The position numbers and the translations under genes are program-made. A stretch of DNA of 33,118 nt from Cytophagales bacterium (GTDB lineage Bacteria > Bacteroidota > Bacteroidia > Cytophagales > Thermoflexibacteraceae), in NCBI GenBank assembly GCA_013298985.1, contig JAAFJS010000037.1, positions 1-33,118 of the forward strand, given 5' to 3'. The first letter of the stretch is position 1. Every line of letters begins with the position of its first letter. The notes under the pieces are model-generated. The model saw only the letters and a program-made list of their open reading frames with translations, made no database searches and was not told the DNA's origin. Below are positions 17,534 through 23,305 of the stretch, piece by piece.

Positions 17534-19165
17534 TTAATGTCCAAAAATTCCGCCTCGTACCCCCCAAATAATCGCATACGCAAGTAAGGCAAGCAAAGGC
17601 AATAGCGAAACATCTTTTTCAAATTGCCAAAAATGTAAGCCAAACTCCTTATAACTTCTGTAAGCACAATACCAAGAATAAAATAGTAAACTACTGATTA
17701 TTAAGGCAATAGGATAGCTATAAAGTGGATTGAAATGGTAGAAAACGACCAAAAAGGTGATGATGAAAATGGTACTTGCGACTGAATTGACCTTGTGCCA
17801 AATAATCTGATTGGTGGTAGAGAAAAAATGAAGATGCATTGCGCCGAAGCGTTGGAAAAAATAGGCAACCCCAAGTCCAAGCCAAAGCAAAGTATCAGGA
17901 AATTGAGTTTTAGACCCAATAAATTTCAGCGCAAAATCGCCAAATAAGCCCACCAATATAAATGCGCCTACAAAAATGAGGTGAGAACGAGCCATACCTT
18001 GCTTGGCTATGCCCACCATTACGCCCATATTCCGTTCGGCATAAAGGCTTGCCAATCTGGGCAATTTGCTGTAAATGGGTGCTTGGGCAAACTCATTTAT
18101 CATCTCAATAATTCGTAAGCCAAATAAAAATATTGCCGCTTGCGTACTTACCATCTCGCGCCCCATATACAAGGAAGCAAAACGCAAAGAGCCGAAAGAA
18201 ACCAATACGCCCACGCCACTTCGCCATGCAGTTTGCCATATCGTTTGGAAAATAGCATTTTCATCTGATTTTTCGCCATTGTCAGTGTCCCCACTGACAA
18301 TTTTTTCTTCTGGTTCAAGGCTCTGCCTTGAACTGTCGCTGTTGTCAGTGTCCTCACTGACAACAACTTCGCCTTCTGGTTTAAGGCTCTGCCTTGAACC
18401 TTCCATTTTTTCTTCTGGTTTAAGGCTCTGCCTTGAACCTTCCATTTTTTCTTCTGGTTTAAGGCTCTGCCTTGAACCTTCCATTTTTTCTTCTGGTTTA
18501 AGGCTCTGCCTTGAACCTTCAATCTTACTCACCAACCAGCGATTCAGCAATATTCCCATCAATACCCAAACTTGACTGGCAACGACTATTCCCAGCACGC
18601 CGCCGTCCAAAAGTAAAACTACAAAACTGCTGATAATTCCGCCCGTTGAGATTAGCACTTCCCACCTACGAAGTGTAGCTACTTGGTTAAGCCCTTGGAG
18701 ATAAGCACTATATAAATTCCCTCGTAGGTAAAATAGAGAAGTCAAAACAATCATTGCCCACGCCAGCCAGCCGTTTAGATGATTTTCGCCTAACTTATTG
18801 ATGGGTTCATAGACAAAATAAGTGCCGATAGTGAGCAATATTCCAAAGGAAATGAGGGTCATGCGCGCGTAAACAATGCCCATGATTTTTCTGATTTGGC
18901 TGACTAACTGCCAGTTTTGTGCGGCTTTGGCATAGGCTATTTGGCGGGCAAAAGTAGGTGTAAAACCCATATCCACCAGAATTTGTAGGCTAATTATTTG
19001 GGCAAACATGAGCCAAAGTGTGATTTCTGCTTGCTGGAAATTACGCAGCACCAAAGGCAAAATTACCACCGCAGAAAGTGAGCGCGTCAGAAAACTACCC
19101 CAAGTCATTAGCGTAGGCGATTCCCAAAGAAAAAGAAGAAATTGACGTGGATTAGTTGGTTTCAT
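17534..19165 (-). CDS. Polysaccharide biosynthesis/flippase-type membrane protein with translated repeat insert
   Basis: A 543-aa polytopic membrane protein of the MATE/Wzx (oligosaccharide flippase) type. It has N-terminal FLTRSLSAVVILPLVLRNF, QILVDMGFTPTFARQIAYA, and LYSAYLQGLNQVATLRRWEV, features usual in this superfamily. Between residues about 215 and 303 there is an 85-90 residue hydrophilic insert. It contains four 13-residue repeats GSRQSLKPEEKME (217, 230, 243, 256), followed by VVSEDTDN, a fifth SSRQSLEPEEK and VSGDTDN. Without it the length would be about 455, normal for the family. The insert sits between two membrane segments and should be a loop. The flanking helices (LMGILLNRWLVS and GVGVLVSFGSLRFASLYM) look intact. 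No glycosyltransferases are adjacent, so the substrate is unknown. Confidence 0.88.
   Translation of the reverse strand: MKPTNPRQFLLFLWESPTLMTWGSFLTRSLSAVVILPLVLRNFQQAEITLWLMFAQIISLQILVDMGFTPTFARQIAYAKAAQNWQLVSQIRKIMGIVYARMTLISFGILLTIGTYFVYEPINKLGENHLNGWLAWAMIVLTSLFYLRGNLYSAYLQGLNQVATLRRWEVLISTGGIISSFVVLLLDGGVLGIVVASQVWVLMGILLNRWLVSKIEGSRQSLKPEEKMEGSRQSLKPEEKMEGSRQSLKPEEKMEGSRQSLKPEGEVVVSEDTDNSDSSRQSLEPEEKIVSGDTDNGEKSDENAIFQTIWQTAWRSGVGVLVSFGSLRFASLYMGREMVSTQAAIFLFGLRIIEMINEFAQAPIYSKLPRLASLYAERNMGVMVGIAKQGMARSHLIFVGAFILVGLFGDFALKFIGSKTQFPDTLLWLGLGVAYFFQRFGAMHLHFFSTTNQIIWHKVNSVASTIFIITFLVVFYHFNPLYSYPIALIISSLLFYSWYCAYRSYKEFGLHFWQFEKDVSLLPLLALLAYAIIWGVRGGIFGH
18279..18520 (-). repeat. In-frame palindromic and 39-bp tandem repeats inside the flippase gene
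   Basis: Palindrome A has arms GTTCAAGGC and GCCTTGAAC around TCT. It is perfect at 18313-18333, and one-mismatch copies (arm GTTTAAGGC) lie at 18379-18399, 18418-18438, 18457-18477 and 18496-18516, exactly 39 bp apart. Palindrome B has arms TTGTCAGTG and CACTGACAA around a 4-base loop, at 18279-18300 and 18342-18363. In coding order they run A-A-A-A-B-A-B. Copies keep the reading frame, coding GSRQSLKPE for A and VS(E/G)DTDN for B. Confidence 0.92.
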
Positions 19166-23262: not shown

Positions 23263-23305
23263 ATCTTAGAAATTCCATTTCTTTGAGAAATGGAATTTCT
23301 AAGAT
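23263..23305. terminator. 20-bp perfect hairpin between convergent genes
   Basis: Two perfectly complementary 20-base arms (23263-23282 and 23286-23305) are separated by the loop TTG. There is no U-run on either side (TGTTTC follows on plus), and the stem is about two-thirds AT. Its position between the convergent LytTR regulator and GntP genes suggests a bidirectional terminator or mRNA 3'-end stabiliser. A small structured RNA or repeat element is also possible. Confidence 0.55.

Follow-up and report, generated by a model that had tools for sequence, protein, structure and literature searches.

The closest described systems to the locus reported here are the repetitive extragenic palindromes (REPs) and the REP-associated tyrosine transposases (RAYTs). 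Subclass 2.6 of these transposases occurs in Bacteroidetes, has the motifs NH[LIV]H, WQ and YIH[QN]NP, and has flanking hairpins of an atypical form, which lack GT[AG]G and are present elsewhere in the genome too (PMC6006769). In-frame REP insertions have been reported within tnpA_REP genes of subclass 2.4, with a general mention of unrelated genes, and the same paper discusses in-frame REPs located in loops (PMC6006769). REPs of the GTAG/CGTC type were described inside ORFs, in frame and often grouped (Di Nocera et al. 2013; PMC3733652), for example as intragenic clusters encoding 43-82 residues in Thauera and Rickettsia conorii, and the Rickettsia palindromic element (RPE) sequences of R. 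conorii bear the CGTC tag (PMC3733652). Bacteroidetes are also known to contain CGTC repeats, but the two palindromes considered here, A and B, are without that tag.

Both palindromes lie in frame in a flippase-like gene within a 33,118-nucleotide stretch of a Cytophagales genome (hereafter the window). Palindrome A resembles the REPs of subclass 2.6 in being a short imperfect palindrome that is found in many extragenic copies and is clustered to either side of a RAYT with the motifs NHLH, WQ and YIHNNP, and in having no GT[AG]G foot; it differs from the system of PMC6006769 in that five copies are in frame in an unrelated gene. With the intragenic GTAG/CGTC REPs (PMC3733652) the locus shares in-frame placement, grouping and a similar cluster size, but it has neither tag, lies in a Bacteroidota host, combines two unrelated palindrome families in one loop, and is accompanied by a REPtron with identical copies in the same genome. 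As with RPEs, palindromes of several families add translated segments to proteins that are otherwise normal, and in-frame insertion relative to homologues is seen in the flippase, in CysN and in a DUF2126 protein; however, the CGTC tag is missing, and A comes with a RAYT of its own and is extragenic elsewhere. The flippase locus works like an RPE and yet, on the tag tested, is not one. PARCEL elements are likewise tandem palindromic coding repeats in membrane-associated proteins, but this identity was rejected: their 25-residue amphipathic motif with conserved hydrophobic positions is absent, and the flippase units are 13 residues long (EGSRQSLKPEEKM), hydrophilic and predicted to be disordered.

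In-frame intragenic REPs have already been described, and the flippase locus is an additional intragenic REP cluster. Distinctive are its cognate RAYT, the empty sites, the two palindrome families in one loop, and the parallels in CysN and DUF2126. One genome unites a translated palindrome cluster, its extragenic family and the probable mobilising RAYT gene, and relatives provide the empty sites, which makes a route from selfish DNA to a new protein segment traceable and testable. In-frame intragenic REPs are also extended to a little-studied RAYT subclass of Bacteroidetes, and such loops should not be taken for conserved domains in annotation. In a literature search of incomplete coverage we came across no paper that reports palindromic repeats in Thermoflexibacter or intragenic REPs in Cytophagales.

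The palindrome cluster and its host gene

Palindrome A (GGTT[T/C]AAGGC-TCT-GCCTTGAAC[C/T]) is a hairpin-capable element of 23 nt with 10-bp arms, at most 1-2 mismatches and a 3-nt loop, and is present in five in-frame copies in the gene for a MOP-type flippase, together with two in-frame copies of palindrome B (TTGTCAGTG-TCCY-CACTGACAA) (Table 1). The coordinates, the copy numbers, the coding order A-A-A-A-B-A-B and the conservation of the frame given by the first-pass annotation were all confirmed on the sequence; the palindromes encode residues 217-296 of the 543-aa ORF. Its description of the arms as palindromes stands in part: all seven copies were located, but the stem is perfect only in the A copy at 18312. 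The other four A copies are mutually identical (GGTTTAAGGCTCTGCCTTGAACC) and share one T-for-C change, which leaves one arm mismatch (T opposite G) between GGTTTAAGGC and GCCTTGAACC.

Table 1 Features of the palindrome cluster, in coordinates of the window
Feature	Position	Strand	Encoded peptide or basis
Host gene, predicted MOP-superfamily (Wzx/O-unit flippase-like) transporter, 543 aa	17534..19165	-	NCBIfam, AlphaFold, Foldseek
Palindrome-coded insert, residues about 217-296, predicted disordered loop between helices	18279..18520	-	Orthologue comparison and pLDDT
Palindrome B copy 2	18279..18300	-	IVSGDTDN
Palindrome A copy 5, perfect stem	18312..18334	-	SSRQSLEP
Palindrome B copy 1	18342..18363	-	VVSEDTDN
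39-bp (13-codon) tandem array, unit of one A palindrome and linker	18373..18520		Tandem Repeats Finder
Palindrome A copy 4	18378..18400	-	GSRQSLKP; same 23-mer as in copies flanking the C24 RAYT
Palindrome A copy 3	18417..18439	-	GSRQSLKP
Palindrome A copy 2	18456..18478	-	GSRQSLKP
Palindrome A copy 1	18495..18517	-	GSRQSLKP

Chance palindromes were rejected, as the cluster exceeds both shuffle and Markov expectations. The A core, with up to 2 mismatches, has 6 matches against 1.46 expected, a number reached in 0 of 100 shuffles, and three of the four perfect hairpins in the window (arms of at least 9, loop of 3-4) belong to the cluster, the Markov null giving a mean of 0.57 and a maximum of 4 in 30 under the same settings. 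A perfect hairpin unrelated to A or B (TCCATTTCTTTGAGAAATGGA) is present at 23274-23294, in the spacer after a response-regulator gene.

The 39-bp spacing of four A copies that had been pointed out earlier corresponds to a tandem unit, repeated 3.8 times at 100% identity and encoding a regular 13-residue motif, and a 66-bp unit of B and A is likewise duplicated (1.9 copies, 84%; Tandem Repeats Finder). Perfect identity over 3.8 copies and a unit length that is a multiple of three would suit a length-variable contingency locus, in which the copy number of the 39-bp unit alters the flippase loop. However, a 13-codon change is unable to switch the gene off and the loop has no known function, and we consider this explanation improbable.

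The flippase scores 139 bits against the NCBIfam family NF041503 (WZX_like), below the 300-bit cut-off, and a Pfam search returned no family at E 0.001. Its AlphaFold model, built on a 10-sequence alignment, has a mean pLDDT of 82.6 and matches MurJ, WzxE and MATE structures in Foldseek (E about 5e-6 to 1e-4); on the basis of these matches, the modelled host protein is a MOP-superfamily flippase-like transporter. Residues 233-236 and 238-294, which lie between a helix that ends at 229 and one that starts at 297, have a pLDDT below 50, and the mean hydropathy of the insert is -1.45. The palindrome-coded loop is predicted to be disordered and the flippase fold to be kept. The hydrophilic loop of about 85 residues between helices proposed in the first-pass annotation was correct in character, but about 80 residues are spanned by palindromes and the net gain is smaller, namely 68 residues relative to Thermoflexibacter ruber and about 75 relative to a more distant genus.

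Neither T. ruber (G297), which belongs to the same GTDB genus, nor any of five other orthologues of the GTDB family has the insert. The tblastn matches of these six genomes end near residue 215 and restart at 285-305, and no trace of the palindrome repeats was seen in any of them in the orthologue alignment. As the earlier annotation had suggested, we compared the flippase among relatives, and no homologue carries the loop. Many further copies of the palindromes exist, and neither of the two refuting observations named in that annotation was made. The nearest orthologue, that of T. ruber, is 65-71% identical in protein outside the loop, so a target duplication is unreadable at the insert; it has an extra segment of its own (GGAKDLYSFSNLVNNQNDARKTSN), with no visible palindrome. 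A protein search of the genome contigs was carried out with the flippase alignment (8 relatives) and with the window flippase alone, which gave no matches. By this orthologue comparison, the palindrome-coded segment is shown to be an insertion in the lineage leading to the present genome.

Dispersal of the palindromes and the associated transposases

A genome-wide search for both palindromes, as proposed earlier, revealed that they are dispersed, A being almost only intergenic and B occurring in genes and spacers. The A core is found at 13 exact places in the genome (0 for a reversed-pattern control). Many copies form pairs with a sister palindrome, A' (GGTNCAAGCGTNACGCTTGNACC), a variable base in one arm being met by its complement in the other arm, and a search for the relaxed A/A' shape gave 95 places, compared with 9 for the control. 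Of the 44 distinct A/A' places counted in the retrieved loci with ORF length as a proxy for genes, the flippase copies alone lie within a convincing gene, and one further place is inside a doubtful 162-aa ORF with a TTG start. The two genus mates examined have almost no copies of A. Most copies have NCTGG at the 5' foot and lack the canonical GT[AG]G tetranucleotide, which excludes a canonical GTAG REP but not one of subclass 2.6, since the REPs of that subclass lack this consensus (PMC6006769).

A dense array of A palindromes surrounds a 174-aa ORF on contig C24 (L052:5896-6420). This ORF is an intact RAYT (NCBIfam NF047646, 101.6 bits, cut-off 80; Pfam Y1_Tnp, 33.5, cut-off 23) with A-type palindromes on both sides, in a REPtron arrangement, and its motifs NHLH, WQ and YIHNNP fit subclass 2.6, the Bacteroidetes subclass with atypical REPs. 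Four palindromes of the array are identical to the flippase 23-mer over 23 nt; the longest exact match between array and insert is 25 nt, and a further match of 37 nt with 32 identical positions reaches into the linker CAGAAGAAAA. The C24 RAYT probably moves the A palindromes. Moreover, in another genus of the family (G302), a frame-broken RAYT with 44-50% identity to that of C24 lies between A-type palindromes at C38:49490 and 51239. Given the extragenic dispersal and the A-type palindromes flanking RAYTs on C24 and in G302, A is a REP, and we assign it to those that accompany subclass 2.6 RAYTs.

Other elements were noted around these genes. A retron-like reverse transcriptase (L052:2837-4150; RVT_1, 78.8 bits; top NCBIfam matches to the retron Ec67/St85 families, below cut-off) is encoded near the C24 REPtron, and its stop codon is closely followed by an A palindrome. 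In addition, contig C95 of the same genome has a second intact RAYT (189 aa) with its own palindrome GGTCAAGATTTGYAATCTTGACC at L105:1255-1277 and 1968-1990, followed by an additional RAYT-like ORF (L105:2138-2512).

Palindrome B, a second dispersed and REP-like palindrome, has 8 exact places in the genome (0 for the reversed pattern) and is bordered by GC[CT] in most copies there. Among 59 relatives, exact copies are present in this genus and in one other family genome (G305), and a search of 296 genomes of the phylum recovered B in its own genome alone; B is therefore no repeat of the Bacteroidota in general. Apart from the flippase copies, 3 of 6 B places in this genome and 4 of 5 in relatives are within ORFs, the others including spacers. 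It is translated in three reading frames (VSEDTDN, LSVKTLTT and VVSVFTDN), which indicates that the DNA, not the peptide, spreads. No exact B was found at any RAYT locus retrieved, but in the sister species a RAYT (G296:C15, L132) has B-like flanks, TTGTCAGTTTTGAGAAACTGACAA, with the outer 8 bp of each arm in common with B. This similarity is a lead only towards a possible membership of B in the L132-type RAYT group. The counterpart of the L132 RAYT in the present genome, on C108, is broken and flanked by other palindromes. On either side of this broken RAYT and its palindromes lies a copy of a direct repeat of ~72 bp with one mismatch (L119:2038-2109 and 2790-2861), in which the 3' end of a cytochrome-peroxidase-like gene is included, as if a unit of both had inserted with a long duplication.

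The behaviour of B fits the analogy with Rickettsia drawn in the first-pass annotation. A Rickettsia-type RPE would be a palindromic element with its niche in coding DNA and no dedicated transposase; B has in-frame copies in unrelated genes of four family genomes, and no cognate transposase has been demonstrated for it in this genome. However, B is also found in spacers, and its 7 genic places out of 11 outside the flippase do not exceed what the usual coding density of bacteria predicts, so that a preference of B for genes is not supported. Moreover, neither palindrome has the CGTC tag of the R. conorii RPEs (PMC3733652), and A has a RAYT and is otherwise extragenic. What stands of the analogy is the presence of dispersed elements in frame in a Bacteroidota gene. 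Because the genome that carries A also encodes its RAYT, the REP/REPtron is the closer analogy, and we hold an RPE to be quite unlikely.

Origin of the insert

Insertion, dispersal, the physical linkage of A to a RAYT and perfect tandem repetition are directly supported. Very probably, RAYT-type REPs entered the codons of the loop in a stop-free frame, and duplication then amplified the 39-bp unit. According to this scenario, copies of A and B would have entered codons of the loop between two flippase helices, mobilised by a transposase of the HUH type (RAYT) that cleaves and rejoins single-stranded hairpins; the latter step is proposed by analogy with the RAYT literature and leans on the work on E. 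coli TnpA_REP cited in PMC6006769. The inserts would have been retained because their frame is stop-free and their product a hydrophilic, disordered loop, and it is this disorder that may have made them tolerable, the loop being presumably neutral for transport, again by analogy with RAYT systems. The 39-bp unit would later have been amplified head to tail in whole codons, via slippage or unequal recombination. Three of the six frames are open for the flippase-type A and four of six for B, so survival in frame requires no special explanation.

Folding of the 251-nt palindrome stretch gave z-scores against shuffles of -10.2 as ssDNA and -10.3 as RNA. Hairpins of such predicted strength might suggest an RNA-level element within the mRNA, such as a terminator, an attenuator or processing hairpins; however, there is no Rfam match, the folding energy follows from the palindromes themselves and the orthologues are without the insert, which leaves this explanation very improbable. 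Least credible of all is a conserved functional segment of the flippase (e.g. a binding or regulatory loop) with codons palindromic by accident, which the intact reading frame and the regular 13-residue motif might recall. It is largely refuted, since the sites are empty in relatives and copies exist outside genes: no family orthologue carries the loop, the identical 23-mer is found in untranslated DNA around the RAYT, and B is translated in three different frames in other genes.

Palindrome inserts in other proteins of the genus

The RAYT-driven origin preferred for the flippase insert can be set beside two parallel cases. The large subunit of sulfate adenylyltransferase, CysN (G000:C54, L015:466-1938), has two palindrome-rich segments inserted in frame between conserved blocks, one of about 44 residues (about residues 169-212, with other palindromic repeats) and one of about 37 (about residues 343-379, with B); they coincide with the only two gaps that its alignment to PDB 1zun contains. 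In the sister species (G296), a DUF2126 protein harbors a three-palindrome cluster, of which only a remnant is present in the orthologue of our genome and none in T. ruber; its loop (L112:2514-2660 and L172) contains VGTQTT, VVSDDTDN, FVGENTNK and SPFGGGKGE, each from a different palindromic repeat. From these cases, protein loops in this genus appear to gain and lose palindrome inserts. A B site in an AMP-ligase of G305 was not counted as proof of insertion, as no insertion is seen relative to PDB 3nyq.

A broader and tentative possibility, which we rate below even chances by some distance, is that the protein loops of this clade are accretion zones, in which unrelated mobile palindrome families would have been repeatedly inserted, swapped and trimmed in frame, and that B may have adapted to translation (4 of 6 frames open, at least three of them giving a short peptide that is tolerated). 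Finally, B also occurs in frame in a gene coding for a ProA/Hhe-like anti-phage helicase (L019:3-3017, G000:C317; NF058533, 415 bits, below cut-off).
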